A stretch of DNA of 64,000 nucleotides from Nicotiana tabacum (taxonomy: Eukaryota > Streptophyta > Magnoliopsida > Solanales > Solanaceae): positions 112,628,289 through 112,692,288 of the forward strand of contig NC_134081.1 of the NCBI RefSeq assembly GCF_000715075.1. The letters are read 5' to 3'. Numbering within the stretch: the stretch's first letter is position 1; each line of letters begins with the position of its first letter. Of this stretch, positions 940-57,691 are shown piece after piece. The notes beneath the pieces are model-generated. The model saw only the letters and a program-made list of their open reading frames with translations, ran no database searches and was not told where the DNA came from. A program made the position numbers and the translations under genes.

Positions 940-3054
940 ATGGCTACTCCTCCAAACTTCGAAGAAGGCCAGTCAACTTACAGACCGCCTAGGTTCAATG
1001 GACAGTATTATGGATGGTGGAAAACTAGGATGCACGACTTCATCATGGCTGAAGATTCTGAGTTATGGGATGTCATATGTGACGGACCCTTTGTTCCCAC
1101 CAAGAATCTTGGCGACCCAGCTGTAGCCATTCCCAAGACGAGGAAGGAATTCAATGACTCTGATCAAAAGGCTATAGAAAAGAACTTTCGTGCAAAGAAA
1201 ATTCTTATTTGTGGCATTGGTCCTGATGAATATAACAGGATATCGGCATGCCAATCAGCAAAAGAAATCTGGGAGGCTCTTCAGACAGCTCACGAAGGAA
1301 CAACACAGGTTAAGCAATCCAAGATCGACATGCTCACAACTGAATACGAGCTCTTCAAGATGAAAGATGATGAATCCATCCAAGATATGCATACTCGCTT
1401 CACCTCCATCATTAACGAGCTTCACTCTCTTAGTGAAACCATTCCAAGAAATAAGTTTGTTAGGAAAATCCTTAGTGTACTGCCCAGTTCTTGGGAAAGC
1501 AAAGTGAACGCCATTACAGAGGCGAAGGACTTGCAGACACTGACCATAGATGAACTTGTTGGCAATCTAAAAACATATGAAATGATGAAGAAGAAGAAGA
1601 AGAAGGACAATGAAAGAAGAGAACCCAAAAGAGAGAAGAACCTGGTCCTCTAGACAGACAACAATGATTCAAGTGGTGAGGATGGTGATATGGCTTACTT
1701 GACAAGAAGATTCTAGAAGATGGTTCGCAGAAATGGAGGCATTCCAAAAAGGAGAAGTTCTAGCAAGCCAAAAAATTAGGACCTATGTCATAAATGTGGC
1801 AAGCCAGGACACTTCATCAAGGAGTGCCCTCTCCTAAAGCAAGATCAGTACAAAAATAACTTTGACAAAGCAGCCAAGAGGAACTCGGTTCCTGACAAAC
1901 GCTTCAAGAAAAAGAATGACACTGACAATGTTGTAAAGCAAGCTCTTACTGCATGGGGAGACTCCTCCAGCGAATCTGAAGAAGAAAATGATCATGGTGA
2001 TATTCAATGATGGAAGTGGAAAGTCAAGCAACTAAATATGACTCAATCTTTGCCTTGATGGCTCAGTCTGATGATGATGAAGATGACAACGATGATGAGG
2101 TAAATTTTCTGGATGTTCAGAGAAATCTGAAATCTTATTCTCCTAAAACACTTATGTCTTTGGCAAATGTGTTCATTGATGCTTATCACAGTCTTATAAA
2201 TGATAAAGATGCTTTAACTGTGGAGGTAGGAGAAGTAGAACAAACCAGAGATGACTTAGTAATCGTTGTTATTGATTTAAAGGAGACAATTGAGAACCTG
2301 AAGAAAGAGAAGGATGCCTTAGATGAAAAAATTACACATGTAGAACATGAAAGAGATGATCTAATGGTCACTGTGGTAGATCTAAAAGAGACCCTTGAGT
2401 GTGTAAGAAAGGAAAAAGAAGTCTTAGTTGAGAGAGTTGCTTACATTGAGCATGAGAGAGATGACCTATTAGTAGTGGTAGTGGACTTGAAAGAAATAAT
2501 TGGGGCACCTAAAATAGAAAGTAAGCCTAAAAATTCTCAAAAGGGAAATGAAGTTGCAAGTGGGGCACACATTAAGCTTGAAAGTGAGTTAAATTCAGTG
2601 AAGTCTAGTCTGTATGCTGAGCTTGAGAAAAACAAACAACTTCATGAAGAACTAGGAAGAGTGAAGAGTGACCTTGAAAAATCACTCAAGTGGAACCTGG
2701 TCCTCTGATGCTATCATTGCCATGTACACCAACAATGGGGGAAACATGCAGGGGATTGGGTTCCAAAGGGAAAAGATTCCCTACAACCCTCATAGCAAGT
2801 ACGTTACTGTACCTGATAAAGTTGGCTTTGTATTCACCGTGGTAACACTGGGTACTTTAAAGAAAACTGTAAGGCCAGATTTCAGTCACAGCAGAAAAAC
2901 AAAGTTTTCGCTGAAAAAGTAACTACTGGTAGAGAACCTGGTCCCTCATATAAGAAATGCATGATGCCTGCTTGGACAAAAAAATCCCTCATTCACCACC
3001 TTTCCTTATTACAAGGGACCCAAACTCGTTTGGGTTCCTAAGTCTAACTCTTGA
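940..3054 (+). pseudogene. Element A gag with long C-terminal extension, broken
   Basis: The start at 940 opens a 237-residue frame resembling the UBN2 copia Gag family, with the LWDVICDGP and W-x2-L/A-x-T-A-H-E-G blocks seen also in element B. The frame is lost at 1653. A zinc knuckle (CHKCGKPGHFIKEC) follows at about 1782-1824 in another frame. The frame 2007-2708 encodes an acidic stretch and then about three ~35-residue heptad-like repeats containing ERDDL and DLKE, predicting a coiled coil. A second, damaged knuckle is near 2830. The region ends with a KGPKLVWVPKSN block and stop at 3054, the same ending as element B's gag. Gag would form the virus-like particle; this copy needs several frame changes and is not functional. 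The extension overlaps the candidate intron 2100-3067. Confidence 0.85.
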
Positions 3055-3067
3055 TTTTCTTGTGCAG
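2100..3067 (+). other. Candidate intron spanning the gag C-terminal extension and gag stop (element A)
   Basis: The donor GATGAG|GTAAAT lies at codon phase 0 and at the position homologous to element B's donor. The acceptor side has CTAAC (branch-point-like, 3045-3049), a T-rich tract and GTGCAG ending at 3067, directly after the gag stop. In A the distance from acceptor to the protease WYMDSG codons is 28 nt, against 27 in B, so one indel in A would have to be secondary. This is inference from sequence only; compare the entry at 14432. Confidence 0.5.
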
Positions 3068-12381: not shown

Positions 12382-13300
12382 TGTTGGCCCAAGTGAAGGT
12401 TAGTTTTGAATAGTGACAAAGGAAGCTCAGGCATGAACCAGGTCCATCCCTTGTATATATAGATACGGGCAGATTCGAGCATGTGGGATGCACGCGAAGG
12501 AGATAAGCTTAACTTGGTATAATTTATATCTCTTGATCGAAAAGGTTGCATAATTGATAAGGAGAAGGACTCCTTACTCAAAGAGAACACTATCCAAGAT
12601 AAGGGAGGAGTTAGAAGTTGAGATCAACTAGAACTCTTCTACCAAGGAAGAGAAGCATTAGAACTCTAGTTATTTCTTCATCTACTAACTCTATATATTG
12701 CAGGATGTTCTCATGCTACATCGATGCACAAAAGCAGAAGTTAAACATGAATTAAGAGCAAAATAGCAAGGCATTTTGCAAGCAATTCGTGTGTGATTCA
12801 AGTGTGCAAACCTGAAGCTACATGAACTAGATAGAACAACTAGTTCCAAGTGTCTGTCTTTTATTCTAGTTCAATTGTAGTAGGTGTTTTCATATTGTAC
12901 CTTTCAGCTTTATCTAGAGGCAATTGTAATAGGTACTCAGAGTATTCAAGTTAGAGTTAACTTGAAGTTGTCGCAGCAGTTAGAGGCTGGTTGCCACAAC
13001 GGGGTTAGAGTTAATCCTAGGTTTACAAAAGTGTTTTGTAAATGCAGTTTTTGGCTCAGTGATTTATTGAAGAGTTTGGAAAAATCCTAGTGACAAGTAG
13101 GTCGTGGTTTTTTTACCTTTTGAGCTAGGTGTTTTTCACGTAAAATACTTGTGTTCTTTACTTTTAGCATTTACTATTTCAGCAATAGTATGTTAAGGAA
13201 CACTTAGAAGAACCATGTCCTTCCATAATCAGTTTAAGTAAAAAATTGGACACCACACAAATTATCCTTTGTGTGGTATGGTATTGAAGTTAAAACATGA
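12382..13300 (+). repeat. 5' LTR of element B
   Basis: Starts TGTTGGCC after host sequence and ends just before ATTGGTATCA. It is homologous over its full length to 21855-22771. It includes GAACCAGGTCC at 12435-12445. Confidence 0.92.
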
Positions 13301-13301
13301 A

Positions 13302-13314
13302 TTGGTATCAAATA
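13302..13314 (+). other. Primer-binding site of element B (initiator Met tRNA), mutated
   Basis: TTGGTATCA is intact but the following GAGC reads AATA, weakening the expected pairing with initiator Met tRNA. Confidence 0.85.
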
Positions 13315-13356
13315 AGGTTATCCTTGAAGAGGCTAACACCTTTGGAAAAGATCAAG

Positions 13357-15178
13357 ATGATTGCACCACCTGGAAAATGGGAAAGGCAATCCATTGCTAG
13401 GACACCACTCTTCAATGACTAGTATTACTCTTGGTGGAAAAACAGGATGAGAGATATCATAGGAGAAGACTATAAACTATGGGACATTGTCACAGATGGC
13501 CCACTGGCTACCATGAAGATAAATGCCGAAGGAGAAGAGGTGGCAAAGACAAGAGCTGACTGCACTCCTGACGACTTGAGAAAATGGGAGAAGAATGCTA
13601 AAGACAAGAAATGGCTTGTTTGTGGACTCGGTCCAGATGAGTACAGTAGAATCCAAAGCTATACCACTGCTAAGAAAATCTAGGATACTTTGCAAATGGC
13701 TCATGAAGGAACACCTCAAGTGAAGAGGTCCAGAGGAACACTGCTGTATTCTCAGTATGTGAATTTCACCATGAAGGAAGGACAAACCATCCAAGAGATA
13801 TATACAAGGTTCACCATACTGACAAATGAACTTAAGTCTCTTGGAAGGATTATTTCTGAAGAAGACAAAGTTGAGAAAATTTTGACAAGGGTTCTGCCAG
13901 TTACTTGGGAGAGCAAAATCACTGCCATTGAGGAATCAAAGAACATTGACACTCTTAATTTGGATGAGCTAATTGGAAATCTCACTACTTATGAACTTAG
14001 AAGGCAAACCATGAAGATGGACGTACCCAAGCAGGAAAAGGAGCCTGGTACTCAAAATCACTGAAGGTTCTGATCTAGAAGATGATGAAATGGCTATGAT
14101 CACAAAAGACTTCAAGAAGTACCTAAAGAGAGGAAAGGGTCCTTCAAGAAGTGGAAGCTACAGCAAACCAAAAGCTCCTGAAAGGCAAACTAATGAGGGA
14201 TGCTACAAGTGTGGTAACACTGATCATCACATCAAGAACTGCCCTCAATGGGAAATTGAATGGAAGAAGGAAAGAGCTGAACGAAGAAACAGGAAGAAGG
14301 AACAGGTTCAACCCAAGAAGAACAAAGGATCAACAAAGGCTATGGTTGCTGCTTGGGGAGAAAGCTCAGATGATGAAGATGGAGATGAACAAGCACTTAT
14401 GGCCATTGGAGAATCTGATGAGGAATCTAAGGTAAGTGTAATTCATCTCAAAGACAAGATTAAATTTTTGTCTAAAGAAAGGCTATCTGAATTACTTCTA
14501 GATTTCATTGATGAATCTGAGGATGTAAACAATGAAAACGAACAGCTGTCTAAGGAATGTGTAATTTTGAAAGCAAAGTGTAAGAACCTGAAACTTAGGG
14601 TTAGTGAGACTATAAGTGAAAATACTGCATTAAAGAACCAGTTTCATGCATTTGAATCAAATGTCCTAGAACTTAGATCTGAAAATTTAAAACTGAAATT
14701 AGGAACAAGTAAGAAGACAACTGATTGCACACAACTCACTCTAGAAGAAAATGCAGGTAAACTAAAAGATGAGTTGTATAAGAAGTATGAGCAGGTTAGA
14801 ATTTTGAAAGAGGATCTAGGCAAAGTCAAGCATGAACTAGACAGAACTTGTAAATGGAACAGGTCCTCTGATGCACTTTCATGGCTACAGGAATATCATA
14901 GTAGCAATAGAAGAGGACTTGGCTTTGGGAATATGCCACCTAAATGGGATCCCAAAAGCAAGTACCTTACACTTTCTGAGAACAAGATTTGTACTCACTG
15001 TGGTAAAACAGGTCACTATAAAAGTGAATGCAATTCAAAAGAAAAGGAAAGCCAAAAGAACAAAGAATTTGTTCGATGGAGGAATAGGCTACCAAGTTGG
15101 GCTAAAAGGAATCTGATTCATTCTTTTGCCTACATAAAGGGACCCAAACTAGTTTGGGTTCCTAAGTCTAACCCCTGA
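13357..15178 (+). pseudogene. Element B gag, two zinc knuckles around a coiled coil, broken
   Basis: From the ATG at 13357 the UBN2-like Gag frame contains in-frame TAGs at about 13420 and 13681 (a Trp codon in element A) and a frameshift near 14050. The frame 14090-15178 is open for 362 residues: a first knuckle CYKCGNTDHHIKNC (about residues 38-51), a basic stretch, an acidic stretch SSDDEDGDE, a long predicted coiled coil rich in K/E/L/N, a second intact knuckle CTHCGKTGHYKSEC (about 302-315), then KGPKLVWVPKSNP and stop. The second half overlaps the candidate intron 14432-15191, so spliced and unspliced RNAs would make Gags with one or two knuckles. Confidence 0.88.
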
Positions 15179-15191
15179 TTTTCTTTTACAG
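14432..15191 (+). other. Candidate intron whose removal fuses gag to pol in frame (element B)
   Basis: The donor is TCTAAG|GTAAGTG, a near-perfect plant consensus, at codon phase 0 of the gag frame. The acceptor is TTTTCTTTTACAG at 15179-15191 with CTAAC (branch-point-like) at 15169-15173, immediately after the gag stop codon. Joining 14431 to 15192 keeps the frame without a stop into the protease D-S-G motif (about 15228). Removing 760 nt would delete the coiled coil, the second zinc knuckle and the gag stop. The same arrangement occurs at the homologous position of element A (2100-3067). No transcript evidence is available here. Confidence 0.6.
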
Positions 15192-18100
15192 GTCCAAGTG
15201 AAGAGGAGCAACCAAATATGGTACATCGATAGTGGTTGCTCAAAGCATATGACAGGAAGCAAGAACTAGTTCATTTCACTTGAGGACCTCAAATGAGGTA
15301 ATGTCTCCTTTGGAAATGGGAAGAAAGGTGAGATCATTGGGGTTAGAAAGGTAGGTAAGACTCATTCTCACTCTATTGAGAATGTCTACTTGATAGATGG
15401 CCTAAATACAGTCTAATCAATGTATCACAACTGTATGATAGAGGTAACTTGGTAGAATTCACCTCTACCAAATGTTTTGTGATTAATCTTACTACTGACA
15501 AGATTGTTTTGCAGGGAAAAAGAGTGAAAAATATATATATTATAGATCTGTCCACACTTTCAGAAAATGAACTCACTTGCTTAAGTGTGTTGGACAATGA
15601 TCCCCTCCTTTGGCACAAGAGACTTGGACATGCAAGTCTGAGTCAACTCAACAAATTAGTCTCTAAGGACCTGGTGATAGGGTTGCCTAACATCAAGTTC
15701 AAGGAAGACAAAGTGTGTGAGGCTTGTTCAAGGGGGAAGCAGGTAAGATCCTCTTTTAAATGCAAGAAAGTGGTAAGCACCACCAGGACGATGGAACTGG
15801 TCCATATAGATCTCTGTGGTCAAATGAGAACATTCAGAAGAGGTGGTAAAAGATATGTAATGGTGCTTGTTGATGATTACTCTAGGTTTACTTGGACATT
15901 ATTTTTAACATCTAAAGATGAAGCATTTGACATGTTCACTTCTTTTGTTAGAAAAACTGAGAAACAACTAGGTATTCAACTTGCATCAATTAGGTCTGAT
16001 CATGGCACTGAATTTGAGAATGCTAAATTTGCTGAATTTTGTGATGAGCATGGCATAGATCATAATTTCTCTGCTCCTAGGACTACACAACAAAATGGAG
16101 TAGTTGAAAGAAATAATAGGGCACTTGAAGATATGGCTAGGACTATGCTTCTTTCTGGTAAACCGCCTCATAGCTTCTGGGTAAAAGCTGTAAATACTGC
16201 ATGCTACATCATAAATAGGTGCATGACTAGACCTCTTGTAGAGTAGACTCCCTATGAGTTACTTAAAGGTAGAAAACCAAATATATCCCATCTTAGGACA
16301 TTTGGATGCAAGTGCTTTGTGCACAACAATGGTAAAGACTCTCTAGGCAAGTTTGATACCAGAAGTGATGAGGGAGTATTCTTGGGATATTCTTCACATA
16401 GCAAAGCTTACAAGGTCTATAACAAAAGAACTATGTGTGTTGAAGAAAGTGTTCATGTGATTTTTGATGAAACTAATATTTTTCTGAGAGACAGGAACAT
16501 GATGATGAGGCAATTGGGCTGGTAAGAAATTTAAATGAAACCACAGCCCAGACTGAAGCTGCACTGGAAGAAGGAACAGGTGATGGAACAACTTCTTCCT
16601 CCTGGAGCAACATGACAAGGGGAAGAGAACTAAGAGGAAATGATCCCCAAACCTCAATGGAACCTGTCCATGAACCTGTTCCACAACAACAAAACACTAA
16701 AGGAACATCAAGGGGAAACTAGTTGGTTGTAAAATCTTACAAGTATCAGAGTTCTTATCCCATTAAGAACATAATTACTAATCCAACCTCTAAAATCAAA
16801 ACCAGATCTTCATTAAAGAATCTTTGTGCTTTTGATGCTTTTTTATCTCTTATTGAACCTAAAAACGTTACCGAGGCTTTGTAGGATGCAGACTGGGTAA
16901 ATGCAATGCAAGATGAACTCAACTAATTTGAAAGGAGTCAAGTTTGGCATCTGGTATCAAGGCCTAAGGACAGATCAGTAATTGGCACAAAATAGGTCTT
17001 CAGAAACAAACTTGATGAAGATGGAACAATTACAAGGAACAAGGCAAGATTGATGGTTCAAGGATATAGCCAAGAGGAGGGCATAGACTATGATGAAACT
17101 TTTGCTCCAGTTGCAAGGTTGGAAGCAATAAGACTCCTCTTAGCCTTTGCTGCTTACATGGAATTCACCCTTCACCAGATGGATGTCAAGAGTGCCTTCC
17201 TCAATGGCTATCTAAAGGAAGAAGTGTTTGTCAAGCAACCTCCGGGGTTTGAAAGCAAGGAGAGTCCTGATCATGTGTACAAACTTGACAAAGCACTTTA
17301 TGGGCTCAAGCAGGCTCCAAGAGCATGGTATGAAAGATTATTGAAGTTTTTGCTTGAGCATGACTACAAGAGAGGTAAAATTGACAATACTTTATTCTTG
17401 AAAGAAAAAGGTAAAGATCTCTTGGTAGTTCAGATATATGTTGATGATATAATATTTGGAGCAACTACTGATAAGTTAAGTAAAGAATTTGCTAAACTAA
17501 TGGGGAGTGAATTTGAAATGAGCATGATGGGTTAGCTTAATTTCTTTTTAGGATTAAAAATTAAATAAAATTCAAATGGAACTATGATCCATCAGCAGAA
17601 GTATGTAAAAGCGTTGCTTAAAATGTTTAAAATGGAAGATTCCAAAGAAATTGACACTCCTATTGCAACAGCTACAAAGTTGGATATAGATGAACCCGAT
17701 TCATCTGTTGATCAAAAGTTGTATAGGGAAATGATTGGCTCATTGTTGTATCTCACTGCTAGTAGACCTAACATTATTTTCAGTGTAGCCCTTTGTGTAA
17801 GATTTCAGGCAAATCCGAAGGAGTCTCACTTGACTACTGTCAAGAGAATTTTGAGATATCTAAAAGGCACCACTGATCTTTGTCTATGAAATCCAAAAGG
17901 TGGTAATTTCAATCTAGTGGGATATGCGGATGCTGATTATGCAGGTTTTCTTGTGGATAGAAAGAGCACCTCAGGTATGGCACACTTTCTTGGCTCATGT
18001 CTTGTGTCTTGGACTACCAAAAAGCAAAATTTAGTGGCCTTATCTACTGCTGAAGTTGAGTATGTTGCTGCTGCTTCATGTTGTGCTCAATTGTTGTGGA

Positions 18101-18380
18101 TCAAACAGTAATTAATGGACTTTAGAATTGATGTTGGTTGTATCCCCATTTTTGTGATAACACTAGTGCTATTAGTATGACCAAGAACATGGTTCATCAC
18201 AAGTGAACTAAGCACATAGATGTTAGGCATCACTCTTTTAGGGATAACTATGAAAAGGGTTTGATAACTGTGGAATTTTGTACTACTGACAAGCAAATAG
18301 CTGACATCTTCACAAAAGCTCTAAGTAGAGATCACTTCGAAAGGAACATGTTAGAATTAGGGATGATTACGATCACCTAA
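15192..18380 (+). pseudogene. Element B pol (protease, integrase, RT, RNase H), broken
   Basis: Protease WYIDSGCSKHMTG at about 15219 is intact. Stops follow at about 15270 and 15294 and a frameshift near 15405. Integrase 15449-16246 has LWHKRLGHASL, CEACSRGKQ, HIDLCGQM, VDDYSRFTW, RSDHGTEFEN and FSAPRTTQQNGVVERNNR; the D, D and E positions look intact until a TAG at 16244. RT (about 16870-17535) has [44 protein letters not shown] and the intact active site YVDDIIFGA, then a TAG at about 17534. RNase H continues with ADADYAGFLVDRKSTSG and ADIFTKAL, interrupted at 17889 and 18111. RT and integrase signatures are better preserved than in element A. Confidence 0.93.
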
Positions 18381-18952
18381 AAGGACCAGTTCAAAAATTC
18401 ACATTGAAAAAAAAATTGGTTAGAAAATCTGTAAATTGCTCAGTCTCATACTTTCAATAGTATACTCTTGTGCCATGTGCTAAAATGATTCATTAATCTC
18501 TAATGTTATTTTTTCTATTTTGGAAAATTTAAACTTGCACAAGACAATTCTCAGTGAAGAACCTGGTTCATCAAGATTACTCGGTATGTTTTCTACACTC
18601 TACATAATTTGAAATAATAATATTTGGATCATGAGTAGAGTCCTACTTAATTCCAAACTCTTTTAGACTTATCTGTTACAAATGAACCAGTTTCGTTCAA
18701 AAGACTCCTAACCGAATTGAAGTACCTAGATTCTAGGGATACACTCCAAAGTCTTTTCAAAGCTGAAATTTAGTTTGATTAGACTTCTAAAAGTTTGAAA
18801 AGCTACTGTTACCCCATTAATTAATCCTCTTTAAATTGATCAGCATTATTGTTTTCTTCACTCCTTCTTTTTCAAGACGTCAAATACTCTCCATCTTCTC
18901 TCATCTTCCAAACACAATCCAATTCTCTTCTCTCCCATACCCAAGCATATAA

Positions 18953-21370
18953 ATGGCTAACACTCCTGAAAATCCTTCATCCCCACCCAAGGAAATCACA
19001 CCCACACCATCTATCACACATTCAACCACACCTCTGTCTAAAAAAGGAAGAACTAAGATGCTTGCTCGCAAGACTGTAGCAGGGAGTGCATTATCTAAGA
19101 AATTAGATAAACAATAGGATAGCCAGGTCCAAGAATCTCAGAAATCTAAAGACTCATTTAAATCTGCTACTAAGGGGGAAGAAACGATTTCTTCTGAAAC
19201 TGAACATGTATCTTCTGGCCCTAAATCTACTCCTGAGACAATTTCTGAAGTTGATACAAATTTGAAAAATAGGTTTGTGCTGGTAGGGTCTATAGCAGGT
19301 GTTAAAACTACAGAGTCTAGAGAAGTTGGTAGTAAAAATAAAAAGGAAAAATAAAAAAAGAGCAAGGGAGTTAGGAGTGTTGTGAGGGGAAAGGGTAAAA
19401 GAGTGGTTGATTCTTACTTCCTACTGTATTTCATTTATTGGACCACTAGGAGGTGTCGATGTAGACCCCTCGTCACTACTTCTCCGGGGTTAGGCTAGAT
19501 ACTTACTTGGTACGCATTGATTTACGTACTCATGCTGCACTTGCTGCACTTATTGTGCAGATACATATATCTCTGGTGGTCTTATGGGTGTGAAGGCGCA
19601 GCTATTACGGGGAGTTTATAGTGAGTTGCAATCTATTATGATTCGCAGCATACAGAGTCTCCATCAGCATTATTTATATTCTCCTGTCTAACTTGTATTC
19701 CGGACAAATGCCACCCACTCCTATTAGTTTAACCAAAGATACATGTGCAATGGTTGTTTGGGGAGAAATATTTGCTGGAGTAGAGAAGAGTGTAAAAACA
19801 ACAGGAGGAAGTGGGTCTGGCAAAGCTGCTGAAGGGCTGGTTCAACTTGGGAAAAATAGAGATGAACCTATTTCATCTGAATAGGAAACCCCCGCAGACC
19901 TACTGAGAAGAGTGACTGAGAGTTATAATCCAAAGAAGAAAGGAAGTTCAAAGGCTAAAACCCCTAGCACTGCTAGCGCTAACAAGAAAAGGAATGCTGC
20001 TCCTTCTGTTACTATTAAAATTCCTCCCACAAGAGGAAGAGCCACAAGAAGTCAGCTAAAGCAGAATGAGGCAGAACTACAGAAATCCTTAGAAGAAAGT
20101 AGAAGAAAAGCAGTTGCTAAGGGAAAGAAAAAGGTGGATGAGCCTGTTGAGGCTATTGACATTGATGAGATGGACCTGGTCCTTCGAGATGAAGATGAGA
20201 CTGAAGAAGTGGAGGTTCTGACTCCCAAAGCCAAGAAAGCCAAGACGTCCACTAAGAAGTCTGTTTTAGAGTCAAAGTCTGCTGAACCATCCACATTGGC
20301 AAAAAGAACAAGGTCTGCTGTGAAGTCAAAACAAGTGAACAATGTTGAAGAAAAGGAATGGATTGGAGAGGAAGAAGATGATTCTAACACTGAGAAAGAC
20401 AAGATGACCAAGTTTGGCAAGAGGACAATTTTGAAAGGCAGACTCCTCAGGACTTAGAGGAGCAAGGAATGGTGTTGCTTTTGGAGAAGTTAGAGTTGCA
20501 AGGCTGGAAGGACATGGTCCTTCAGATGGATGGCAAGTTGGCCAGGAATGAAATTGTTGAGTTTATGGCAAATGGCGAGGTGAATGATGGAAGGGTTACC
20601 AGTATAGTGAAACAAGTGCAAGTCTCCTTCGATGTGAAAGAGTTGGGAGAAATTATGGGTGTACCTGCTGAGGGGTACAATGACTATACAAAGCTTAAGT
20701 GGCCAAGCCTAGAAAATCTTCCTACTGCCCTTACCATTACCAGGAAATTCAGTGACAATGAGGAGGAAGTTGAGCTCAAGGCTGTGTACAAGAGTGAGAT
20801 GAAGCCACCCTACAAGGTGTTGTTCGAATTTGTCAACACATGTGTTCTGCCAAGGCAGGAAAGGAGGCACATTGCAAACTTCATGGACTTGGTCCTTATG
20901 GAGTGTTTAGATAGTGGGAGGCATATTAATTGGCCTGGATTTATAATCCAACTTCTTGATAGGGTTCTAAATGGCACCAAGACTCATCCCATTCCCTATG
21001 GCTTCATTCTCACAGTTATGCTTGCACATTTCAAGGTACCTATGAAGAAGTGGGAGGTTGGTACAAGTAAGGATCATTGTGGGGAAAATACTCTGATTGT
21101 TTGTGACTATGAAGTCCATGCCACTCCTAAAAAACCTAGTTCATCCAATAAGGTACTAGTGAATAGCAAGGTGCGAGCCTTGGTGCATGAAAGTGGGGCG
21201 AAGGATGCTGAATTGAGAGGCTGAAGAATAGGTTGGCAACAGTGGAGACTGAGAGAGATGCTCTCAGAACTGAGCTGGCAAGAGAAAAGGAGAAGAATGA
21301 TGGCATTCTTCAAGATGTGCTGAAACTCCTCCAAACCAAAAACCAAGCACCTAGTTCTTCCCACCCTTAA
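18953..21370 (+). pseudogene. Element B ORF3: env-position protein with plant-transposon-like domain
   Basis: The ATG at 18953 opens a basic S/T/P-rich frame, interrupted by TAG at about 19114, TAA near 19353 and an apparent insertion at about 19415-19700. A Lys/Glu-rich region with SKAKTPSTAS and RGRATRSQLKQNEAELQ (19912-20457) follows. In the next frame (20469-21224) is the domain shared with element A: IVEFMANG, VKELGEIMGVPAEGY, LPRQERRHIANFMDLVLMEC, NWPGFIIQLLDRV and IPYGFILTVMLAHFKVP. It ends with a coiled-coil tail. It resembles, from memory, the Solanaceae 'putative plant transposon protein' domain. No membrane segment or signal peptide is seen. Confidence 0.75.
19415..19700 (+). other. 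Probable insertion inside element B ORF3
   Basis: This ~285-bp stretch has a different composition (C/G-rich, no long frame) from the K/E/S-rich coding DNA on both sides and has no counterpart in element A's ORF3. I recall similar sequence as a common Solanaceae dispersed repeat but cannot name its class. Exact ends and target duplication could not be fixed. Confidence 0.45.
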
Positions 21371-21854
21371 GCCTCCTAGCCTAGTGTAGATCAACCAGTG
21401 ACCCAGTTCGGGATTTTTTTGTTTCTTTTGCTCATGTTTCCAGTATTTTTATTTCTTTCTTATGCTTTGTGGTAGAATCTTATCAATCATCAATGAAATT
21501 CACTATCTTTTGCTCTAACTGTTTGTTTATATTTCTTTGATGGTTAAAATTCATAGCTTGATCTATGATGATTAACCTATGATTGCATTTGAAGTAGCCC
21601 CAGTGGCCATGAGTAAGTTTTAAAATCTAGGTATTGTACATTTTTTATGCAACTTTTTGATGATGCCAAAAGGGGAAAAAAGGTTGTGCTTTACACTTTG
21701 AACAATGATGTTTATAACCTAATGAACCTGGTCCTTGATGATAAGTGATAAAAAGGAAAAATATTTCTAACATTGTGTTGATGTTGAGCTAAGTTGAAAC
21801 CGTGTCTAAGCTTATGAAAAATACAGAGTTTGTCATCATCAAAAAGGAAGAATT
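21371..21854 (+). other. Element B 3' untranslated region with polypurine tract
   Basis: No gene supported. A first purine block (AAAAGGGGAAAAAAGG) lies near 21668. The final tract AAAAAGGAAGAA at 21841-21852 abuts the 3' LTR. A GAACCTGGTCC motif is at 21724. Confidence 0.75.
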
Positions 21855-22771
21855 TGATGGCCTAAGTGAAGGATAGTTTTGAATATTGACAAAGGAGGCT
21901 TAGGCATGAACCAGGTCGATCCCTTGTGTGCATAGACGGGCAGATTCGAGCATGTGGGATACACATGATGAAGATAAGCTTAACTTGGTATAATTGATAT
22001 CTCCTAATCGAAAAGGTTGCATAATTGATAATGAGAATGACTCCTTACTCAAAGAGAACACTATCCAAGATAAGGGAGGAGTTAGAAGTTGAGATCAACA
22101 AGAACTCTTCCACCAAGGAAGAGTAGCATTAGAACTCTAGTTATTTCTTCATCTACTAACTCTATATATTGCAGGACATTCTCATTCTACAGCGATGCAC
22201 AAAAGCAGAAGTTAAATGTGAATTGAAAGAAAAATAGCAAGGCATTTTACAAGTAATTCGTGTGTGATTCAAGTATGCAAACCTGAAGCTACATGAACCA
22301 TATAGAAGAATCAGTTCCAAGTGTCTGTCTTTTATTCTAGTTCAATTGTAGTAGGTGTTTTCATATTGTACCTTTCAGCTTTATCTAGAGTCAATTGTAA
22401 TAGGTACTCAGAGTATTCAAGTTAGAGTTAACTTGAAGTTGTCGCAGCAGTTAGAGATTGGTTACCACAACGGGGTTAGAGTTAATCCTAGGTTTACAAA
22501 AATATTTTGTAAATACAGTTTTTGGCTCAGTGATTTAGTGGAGAGTTTGGGAAAATCCTAGTGAGAAGTAGGTCTTGGTTTTTTTTACCTTTTGAGCCAG
22601 GTGTTTTCCACATAAAATACTTGTATTCTTTACTTTCCGCATTTACTATTTCAGCAATAGTAGGTTAAGGAACACTTAGAAAAACCAGGTCCTTCCATAA
22701 TCAGTTTAAGCGAAAAATTGGACACCACACAAATAACCCCCCTCTTGTGTGGTATTGAAGTTAAAATATCA
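21855..22771 (+). repeat. 3' LTR of element B
   Basis: Begins TGATGGCC after the polypurine tract and ends ATATCA. It is homologous throughout to 12382-13300. Confidence 0.92.
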
Positions 22772-22772
22772 A

Positions 22773-22785
22773 TTGGTATCAGAGT
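22773..22785 (+). other. Primer-binding site directly after the right LTR of element B
   Basis: TTGGTATCAGAGT follows the LTR exactly as a primer site follows a 5' LTR, and is closer to consensus than the site at 13302. A 3' LTR should be followed by target DNA. This LTR therefore once headed a further internal region (tandem element), now largely deleted or replaced. Confidence 0.8.
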
Positions 22786-23189
22786 AGGTCATCAAGCTAC
22801 ACTTTAAAAAGGTTGAGTGTGTAAGGTAATTTTCGTTAGCAAAAAATGTGTAACAGGGATTTGGTCCATAGTTTAGGGGTAACTTATGTATTTAAATTAG
22901 ATACTACCATCATTTGACCTTGAAAGTCAATTAAGTTGTGACAAAGGTGATGAACTAATAGTGACGGTTCCTCTTTTTCATTAGAACCAGCTGCTAAACT
23001 ACTACAACTACTGAAATAAGAAAAACATGTATACTTTAATCGTGAATATCTCTTGGAGATACGTGTAAGAGTACTATCTACGAGATATACATGGCCTCAA
23101 GAAATCAAGAAATCAATTTTAATAATTAAAGAATGAAAATTTTCACAAGAGATAAGCTGGAATTGATCTTGAGTAGTCTTCTTCTTTTG

Positions 23190-56313: not shown

Positions 56314-57012
56314 ATCATAGAGGTACGTAGGGAGTTTCACCTATATTACTCGGCAGTTAACTACAAAGGTTTCTTCATAACCACCATAAGACTCTTCACC
56401 ATTCTAATAACCACCAGAACAATATAGCTTTATAAGAATTCACATACCAATCTTCACATTTCCAACTCTAATAATTGATTGACTTGAAGAATTGGTATTT
56501 ATACAAAAAGATTGCAGCAAAAGAAAATGAATACCATGTACAAGAAACCAACAATGATCTCAAACCTCAGCTACTGATAAATAAGAGCTACGAGAGACTG
56601 TCGATTGAAGGAAACAACAACATATGTATGGATGTATGATCCAGTATGTGAATGTATGACTTACAACAATAACAACATAACCAGTGTAATCCCACATAGT
56701 GGGGTCTGGGGAGGGTAGTGTGGATGCAGACCTTACCCCTATTCTTGTGAGCATCGAGAGGTTGTTTCCAATAGACCCTCGGCTCAAGGAAAACATAAAC
56801 ACAATAATAACTAAAAAGAGATATGGTAATGTAGAAGCGATGAAAGGAAACAGTAATAACAACAAAATAATAAAGTGACTTGAAGAGGAAAAAAACAACA
56901 CACAGCACTCGAAATCTACAAATAAGATAACATGAGACTACGTACTAATACTACTGGTATGAAAAGAGGAATTCTAGACTACCTACTGCTGGTATGTAAA
57001 TGTATGACTTGC
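56314..57012 (-). other. RAD16-like intron DNA upstream of element E
   Basis: Intronic DNA between the target duplication of E and the GC-type donor of the exon at 57013. It holds the SINE at 56655; otherwise no feature is seen. Confidence 0.6.
56655..56785 (+). mobile_element. SINE (Au-like / Solanaceae type)
   Basis: AACAATAACAACATAACCAG, then GTGTAATCCCACATAGTGGG, TCTGGGGAGGGTAGTGTGGA, CAGACCTTACCCCTA and GAGGTTGTTTCCAATAGACC follow the consensus of a very common plant SINE that I recall as Au SINE. The tail is A/AAC-rich. It inserted in the RAD16 intron antisense to the gene. Naming is from memory. Confidence 0.8.
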
Positions 57013-57639
57013 CTTATCCAAAATGATGCGGTCCCACTTCAGTGAATGCAAAGCTAACTTCCTCCTGGACACAACTGAATTATCAATAGAACCACTGTTG
57101 CTCATTTTTTCTGTAGAATCTGTTTTCTGGTCCAATATTTCTCCCAGAGGTTTTAAGTTCTTACTCTGCTGTTTTGACGGCGTCATATACTTCTTATAAT
57201 CAACCTCAATGGTGGAGTAGGTAGTAATAACAAAATCATATTCCGCCAATTTGTGCATATGTTTCTCCCTGTCAGTGCCATAATAAACAAGAATTTTGTT
57301 GCTACCATTAGTCGTGCAACTATCAATCTCACTAAACCATTGCATTACTCCAACCAAAGGACATACAACAAGAGTTCCTTTGACTGTCTGGGAAGTACTT
57401 GGTGAAGATGACAATATACTGGAATTACTACTATTTGTTCTCTGTAATTCGCGTTTAGCTAGCACAAGTGCTATGGCTTGATCAGTCTTCCCCATTCCCA
57501 TTTCATCAGCAAGAATACCTCCTCTTGCTGCAGATTCTTCTTGCTTTAATGACCAAGCCGACCACTCCTTTTGGTACCTCAGCAATGGCAATATAAAATC
57601 GGATGGTGGCTCGGTTGTTTCAGCTAAAACCAACACGTT
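57013..57639 (-). pseudogene. RAD16: RAD16-like exon: SNF2 motifs I-II with DKA(H) in place of DEAH
   Basis: The largest exon visible. PPSDFILPLLRYQKEW is followed by GGILADEMGMGKT (Walker A intact), TLVVCPLVGVMQWFSEID (motif Ia), EYDFVITTYSTIE and LKWDRIILDKA at the end. The family residue after LD is Glu; here it is Lys (GAG or GAA to AAG), which should abolish ATP hydrolysis. The zinc-binding segment many RAD16 proteins have after the TTYSTIE region is missing. The donor is AAG|GCAAGT, a GC-AG type. The acceptor is probably at 57640 (CTCAG). Element G starts about 50 bp upstream in the gene's sense. Confidence 0.93.
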
Positions 57640-57691
57640 CTGAGTGCTAACTTTCACTGATTTACACTGATTATGAAGTGTAATCCGCAAC

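Follow-up and report, generated by a model that had tools for sequence, protein, structure and literature searches.

Splicing has been described in several plant retrotransposons. According to the available text of the respective reports, Ogre (Ty3/gypsy, Tat) joins an upstream open reading frame (ORF) to the rest of its polyprotein by partial splicing (PMC6317226), BARE1 (Ty1/copia) carries a facultative intron of 104 nucleotides (nt) whose alternative splicing balances Gag and Pol (PMC3735527), and the Gag of the copia element EVADE/ATCOPIA93 is controlled by splicing (shGAG; PMC12786077). Sireviruses, a genus of Ty1/copia elements, account for about 21% of the maize genome, as stated in the accessible part of PMC3599292. 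Their gag/pol boundary features a +1 shift, a conserved stem and a UAG (Gao 2003, as described in sections of PMC5009743 and PMC2829016); the UAG, reported 10 nt after the gag stop, is conserved and unexplained, and the expression of Pol from the +1 frame, with a stop in that frame conserved in one subset of elements, was presented in 2016 as an unresolved puzzle (PMC5009743). Here we analyse a Sirevirus-like element in a 64,000-nt stretch of Nicotiana tabacum DNA (contig NC_134081.1, positions 112,628,289 to 112,692,288, forward strand), hereafter the window, numbered from its first letter. Positions 14432–15191 are, in our view, highly likely to be an intron that is retained or removed and that would give Gag-Pol by splicing, a conclusion drawn here mainly from the DNA of this genome. 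Both splice sites and a compatible frame are present in the window, and the genome holds copies lacking exactly this segment, one of which is bounded by long terminal repeats (LTRs) and a target duplication.

The initial annotation of the window had proposed such a Gag/Gag-Pol intron. The proposal is supported by the occurrence of the junction as continuous DNA in 41 of 46 genomic stretches, by a second tobacco family and by gene models of other eudicots.

The proposed intron and its element

The donor AAG/GTAAGT (the slash marks the cut) is seen directly in gag at phase 0, as annotated, the exon ending at 14431 and the intron starting at 14432. The pyrimidine tract and the acceptor TTTTCTTTTACAG, which ends at 15191, likewise lie directly 3' of the gag stop. 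The CTAAC box, which had been placed after that stop, is present at 15168–15172, but lies 5' of the stop. The predicted continuity of the frame from 14431 to 15192 also holds: gag is in phase 0 at 14431 and pol at 15192 reads VQVKRSNQIWYIDSG, the two pieces having been translated separately. Both the gag stop (15176–15178) and the second CCHC knuckle (14990) fall within the proposed intron, as had been noted. Its length, 760 nt, equals 1 mod 3, which matches the requirement of a +1 pol frame. Once it is removed, the distance from knuckle to protease in the window copy falls from 1018 to 258 nt; two further copia elements in the window have spacings of 159 and 237 nt.

Unspliced RNA would thus encode a long Gag, the C-terminal part of which, with a coiled-coil-like region and the second knuckle, would be intron-encoded and would end at the stop that the intron contains shortly before its 3' splice site. 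In spliced RNA, Gag would be joined after the first knuckle, in frame, to protease, integrase and reverse transcriptase, and the resulting Gag-Pol would have the compact layout of single-ORF copia elements. The features of the element, together with those of a diverged relative in the window, are as follows.

12382–13300, + strand: 5' LTR, which starts with TGTTGG and has a decayed final dinucleotide; ends set by eye from alignment to the intact-ended LTR of copy L109
13302–13313, + strand: primer binding site of TTGGTATCA type, seen directly (compare TTGGTATCAGAGC after the LTR in L109), which we take to be of the tRNA-Met type
14090–15178, + strand: open part of gag with two CCHC knuckles (zf-CCHC, E-value 1.7e-07, two stretches); TGA at 15176–15178
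14201–14242, + strand: first zinc knuckle, in exon 1
14429–14437, + strand: putative 5' splice site AAG/GTAAGT, cut after 14431; GTAAGT in 37 of 40 aligned family copies, window included
14432–15191, + strand: proposed intron of 760 nt, which would encode the C-terminal part of long Gag if retained; precisely missing in 41 of 46 fetched stretches
14990–15031, + strand: second zinc knuckle, within the proposed intron
15138–15163, + strand: inverted repeat, 11-bp stem and 4-nt loop; same stem in window element 1 at about 3014–3039
15168–15172, + strand: CTAAC, candidate branch site; TAAC kept in 38 of 40 copies
15179–15191, + strand: pyrimidine tract and putative 3' splice site TTTTCTTTTACAG; CAG 10 nt after the gag stop, CAG in 27 and TAG in 8 of 40 copies
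15192–15275, + strand: start of exon 2 and pol, VQVKRSNQIWYIDSG protease motif, then a stop in the window copy
15449–16243, + strand: GAG-pre-integrase and integrase core (PF13976, E-value 8.5e-19; PF00665, E-value 4.1e-16)
17050–17535, + strand: reverse transcriptase piece (PF07727, E-value 4.7e-56)
19912–21224, + strand: two ORFs between pol and the 3' LTR (env-like or eORF-3'F position)
21855–22771, + strand: 3' LTR, end set by eye
2100–3067, + strand: intron layout in diverged Sirevirus-like element 1, GAG/GTAAAT ... CTAAC..TGATTTTCTTGTGCAG/G

Sites were scored by simple match to a consensus (nine positions for the donor). AAG/GTAAGT is the sole 9/9 donor among the 416 GTs found between 13310 and 21800, and TTTTCTTTTACAG is the top-scoring acceptor among the 98 AGs found between 14450 and 15600. 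Over the wider interval (13310–21800), 5 of 697 AGs, TTTTCTTTTACAG counted, match or exceed the acceptor score. The base composition of the window copy weighs against an intron, the U content being 26.3% in the intron and 27.8% in exon 2. U-richness was accordingly dropped as a mark of the intron, which is no richer in U than exon 2. The motif MAGGTAAGT occurs once in the window, 1.16 occurrences being expected by chance, so the donor motif alone is no proof.

The element shows the gene order of copia elements, with a protease motif at 15219 and the integrase (15449–16243) preceding the reverse transcriptase (17050–17535). The Ty3/gypsy gene order of Ogre-type elements is absent, as the integrase lies before the reverse transcriptase. 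An inverted repeat of the Sirevirus type is present at the gag/pol boundary; its fold z-scores are modest (-1.47 and -2.42). Pol is +1 relative to gag, as in part of the genus, and the additional ORFs between pol and the 3' LTR fit a Sirevirus trait, extra ORFs at this place being reported for 74% of SIRE elements in the consulted part of PMC6317226. Gag is large and features two CCHC knuckles. Downstream, inside the intron, a Lys/Glu/Leu-rich stretch is a candidate coiled coil by composition and by one leucine-zipper match under its cut-off. The window copy is old and decayed, as its LTRs are 91.7% alike over 931 nt and stops occur in exon 2 and, by eye, in gag near 13681.

The env-like ORF at 20469–21221 matches PF20167, a putative plant transposon protein (E-value 1.8e-13), a match that may be a clue to the origin of the extra ORFs of Sireviruses. 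A second primer-binding-like site, ATTGGTATCAGAGTAGG, is found directly after the 3' LTR (22771–22790), as if a further internal region or a tandem copy started there. Elsewhere in the window, a SNF2-helicase-like coding piece (56983–57690, minus strand) lies among several nested copia elements, as seen by eye.

Genomic copies joined at the predicted junction

Intronless copies of the family were sought in the window's own genome. The first query, P0185, a spliced-type gene model from Manihot, matched many places uninterruptedly from gag into pol; 26 of these stretches were fetched, and 21 feature exon 1 fused to exon 2 exactly at the predicted junction (for instance, GAT GAT GAA CAA GAG/GTC CAA GTG AAG). 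The others were rejected as intronless copies: L082, L083 and L093 belong, by eye, to another copia lineage, L102 carries a different internal deletion, and L106 retains the intron. With a natural intronless piece, L086, as second query, all 40 best-scored matches are uninterrupted over the junction, and the 20 stretches fetched are all joined at the exact junction; six of these carry point changes and escaped the pattern, the junction being read from the sequence directly. In total, 41 of the 46 gag-to-pol stretches read have the exact junction and lack the intron. The two sets merged correspond to at least 52 places on 22 contigs, 41 of which were read. Pol-only matches fetched for comparison (L071–L080) hold the intron in 9 of 10 cases, L072 being rearranged. 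With 3524 first-look candidates for the family, the intronless copies probably make up a small fraction of it.

The copy L081, read at its ends and in the junction region, is enclosed by two LTRs, each about 915 nt long, that are 94.75% alike and have TG..CA ends; a primer site follows the 5' LTR, and the 5-bp target duplication CAAGA is found exactly at both outer ends. The element was thus inserted between its own LTRs, and an RNA that already lacked the intron is the simplest explanation. Loss before reverse transcription is most likely for L081; deletion in place at a later time would require repeated strikes at one identical spot.

Deletion between short direct repeats, by template switching or illegitimate recombination, is another conceivable origin of the intronless copies. 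A 4-nt repeat, AGGT, is indeed found at both ends of the segment (GAGGT and CAGGT). Donor and acceptor both read AG/GT, so that a short-repeat deletion would give the identical product at any single place. This fact counts against a spliced origin, as do three others. For L085, the second intronless copy fetched with its flanks, 5' LTR sequence is present, but the stretch taken yielded no 3' LTR to match it. Because both queries themselves extend over the exact junction, deletions of other kinds would mostly escape them. Neighbouring places, such as the pairs on C10, C12, C16 and C23, may be duplicated segments, so the 52 places are not 52 events. The scanned zone, however, holds 234 pairs of repeats of at least 4 nt, 86 of them frame-keeping, and the 41 copies read all share one pair, which is the canonical splice-site pair accompanied by a branch box and a pyrimidine tract. 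One other internal deletion, that of L102, was met, and the tree described below calls for several origins. The argument loses some of its force, but not all, because the searches favoured copies with the exact junction; we regard deletion between repeats as highly improbable.

The tree was built from 372 columns of exon pieces in 21 intronless and 38 intron-holding rows; 12 of the 50 intron-holding copies were excluded because the script did not locate both sites. It shows seven changes of state, at least two of which are forced by well-supported branches, with the caveats that the data are short, the rough bootstraps had not settled and gene conversion could mislead. An intronless lineage that arose once and then spread would say little about regular splicing. 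Near relatives do occur among the intronless rows (L094/L096 and L089/L099), and these rows are more clustered than shuffled labels, as none of 500 shuffles was equally low. Such clustering indicates that part of the intronless copies probably multiplied after arising. A single intronless clade is nevertheless rejected (approximately unbiased test, p-AU 1.3e-21), and exon 1 ends in different ways (DDEQE, DEESE, DEETE and GESHEESE), the same variants being found in intron-keeping models. We consider a single origin very unlikely. Judging from the sequence record as a whole, segment 14432–15191 is very probably a real intron, and the spliceosome would be the agent of its removal.

The boundary in tobacco families and in other plants

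Two tobacco families were aligned, that of the analysed element (40 copies) and a second one (30 copies), the window being included in both. In the first family, GTAAGT is kept in 37 copies, and the acceptor is CAG in 27, TAG in 8 and different in 5. The intron measures 760 nt in 27 of 34 measured copies. Element 1 of the window (1 to about 6.3 kb) is a diverged Sirevirus-like element whose gag is frame-broken and which shares both the intron layout and the hairpin; here, too, 10 nt separate the gag stop from CAG. In the second family, 27 of the 30 copies have GTAAAT. Over all 30, the acceptor is CAG in 18 copies, TAG in 4 and different in 8, and the intron is 964 nt long in 18 of 29 copies, again 1 mod 3. 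From hairpin to acceptor (15139–15192), 49 of 54 letters are common to both families, as counted by eye from the alignment. Identity between the families reaches 0.97 and 0.93 in the 30-column windows at 15140 and 15155, compared with 0.3–0.7 in most such windows of gag.

Other aspects of conservation speak against a functional intron. The acceptor departs from YAG in 5 of the 40 copies of the first family and in 8 of the 30 of the second. Nor does the donor clearly stand out from its surroundings, its hexamer ranking 105 of 1194 for fewest departures (mean 0.0125, compared with 0.035 overall in the first family). Departures amount to 0.034 at codon positions 1 and 2 and to 0.037 at the third, indicating that the copies decay almost neutrally, which accounts for the lack of clear protection at the donor.

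The junction is also featured in gene models from five further eudicot families. The first two protein searches provided 50 models with a protease motif (49 from the Nicotiana searches, 1 Gastrolobium), and exon 2 begins at the proposed acceptor in 40 of them. The third search used as query the Gastrolobium (legume) model, which itself bears the junction, so that its sample is biased. Among the 120 relatives listed, 37 join, by pattern, the acidic block after the first knuckle to the protease, though a few of these may be other lineages; of the remaining 83, 14 start near the protease, 52 are of other kinds and 17 lack the motif. The sequence E/V[CY]L is found in 15 of the 37, as counted by eye, with representatives in Cicer, Lathyrus, Cuscuta, Rubroshorea, Manihot and Escallonia, in P0200 (an environmental contig) and in P0178. 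Models that retain the region, in several genera, have V-S, V-T or V-N at the donor, consistent with GTAAGT, GTAACT or GTAAAT.

Each gene model may represent a predicted intron or an intronless copy, and both fit. Gene models were rejected as sole proof of splicing, since prediction programs are bound to join frames and part of the models may stem from intronless copies. Three findings count against a uniform intron: the Chenopodium models P0147 and P0157 have V-F at the donor place, some relatives, such as P0249, keep the extension within a single continuous gag-pol frame, and only 9 of the 50 models show the proposed donor-acceptor pair, so other donors may exist. Splicing could be real and yet join several donors to one acceptor, giving a family of Gag-Pol forms, as the models that fuse other gag positions to the same acceptor suggest. 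These models may, however, be forced joins in decayed copies, and genomic copies fused at any other donor were not encountered, though the searches were hardly suited to find them. We regard multiple donors as rather doubtful, while giving the idea some weight.

Environmental contigs also encode a large set of Sirevirus-like proteins without the split (part of P0223–P0263), in which gag and pol form a single ORF and one to three knuckles immediately precede WYIDSGCSKHMTGD. In the environmental ORFs P0176 (1269-bp contig) and P0200 (4427-bp contig), gag is fused directly to protease, and each could come from a spliced transcript or from an intronless copy in the genome of another plant. Among the plant DNA of viral-contig, genome-contig and plasmid collections, no relatives were found.

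Expression of Pol and comparison with known elements

The acceptor YAG starts exactly 10 nt after the gag stop, at the position of the UAG reported for Sireviruses, and both CAG and TAG occur there. Conservation of a stop in the pol frame is hard to reconcile with frameshifting, and fits a 3' splice site naturally. Change of CAG to TAG is a common form of cytosine decay, so that in these old copies the TAG acceptors may reflect either selection or decay.

Pol might alternatively be expressed by +1 frameshifting, ribosomal bypass or internal entry at the end of gag, the splice-like sites being coincidental or minor. The +1 pol frame and the conserved hairpin suit such mechanisms, and proposals of bypass and internal entry are cited in the accessible portion of PMC2829016. 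The overlap of pol with gag is, in contrast, just 26 nt in the window copy, and a TAG at the acceptor closes the pol frame in 8 of the 40 copies of the first family and in 4 of the 30 of the second, which would block an upstream frameshift and leave splicing unaffected, although the TAG could also be due to decay. Such mechanisms also leave the intronless copies unexplained. We consider it unlikely that they replace splicing; frameshifting or internal entry may act in addition to it. Under the preferred reading, spliced RNA would be the main source of Pol, and the efficiency of splicing, presumably regulated, would set the ratio of Gag to Pol. More speculatively, the hairpin may modulate the use of the 3' splice site.

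A wider reading, which we place just on the probable side, combines four parts. Split-gag-pol Sireviruses of eudicots, perhaps of all angiosperms, would splice out a gag-coding intron to make Pol; the conserved UAG and stem would be the 3' splice site and its controller; the Sirevirus-specific Gag extension would be present only in the unspliced product; and spliced RNA would be packaged and reverse transcribed, repeatedly yielding intronless elements unable to produce long Gag and dependent on the Gag of others.

We presume that the Gag extension binds LC8; if the splicing reading is true, this extension is excluded from Gag-Pol, natural intronless copies are a record of past splicing, and removal of the gag tail by splicing explains enzyme expression in this common plant element. 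A light-chain interaction is mentioned in the literature, as far as the sources available to us extend. A splice site at the exact boundary position makes the question of Sirevirus Pol expression directly testable.

The matching stem (11 bp, 4-nt loop) and the 10-nt spacing from stop to YAG link this locus to the Sirevirus boundary of PMC5009743 and PMC2829016, which is treated in the accessible sections as a puzzle or as a signal for recoding, bypass or internal entry and is read here as a putative 3' splice site. In the open-licence literature, as far as its text was available, we found no report of gag-pol splicing in Sireviruses. BARE1 follows the opposite logic, since its unspliced RNA is the single Gag-Pol ORF and its spliced RNA encodes Gag only (available text of PMC3735527). 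In EVADE/ATCOPIA93, splicing removes the protease region and generates a short Gag RNA, whereas here splicing would generate Gag-Pol (available text of PMC12786077). A BARE1/EVADE-type arrangement, in which spliced RNA is Gag only, does not fit, the junction being in frame into pol. Ogre resembles our element in joining an upstream ORF to the rest of the polyprotein; it belongs, however, to another superfamily (PMC6317226, in the part available), and in the tobacco element the proposed intron overlaps gag coding sequence and the protease lies downstream of the intron. Splicing-based control of Gag and Gag-Pol in this form would constitute a new variant among the known kinds of such control.
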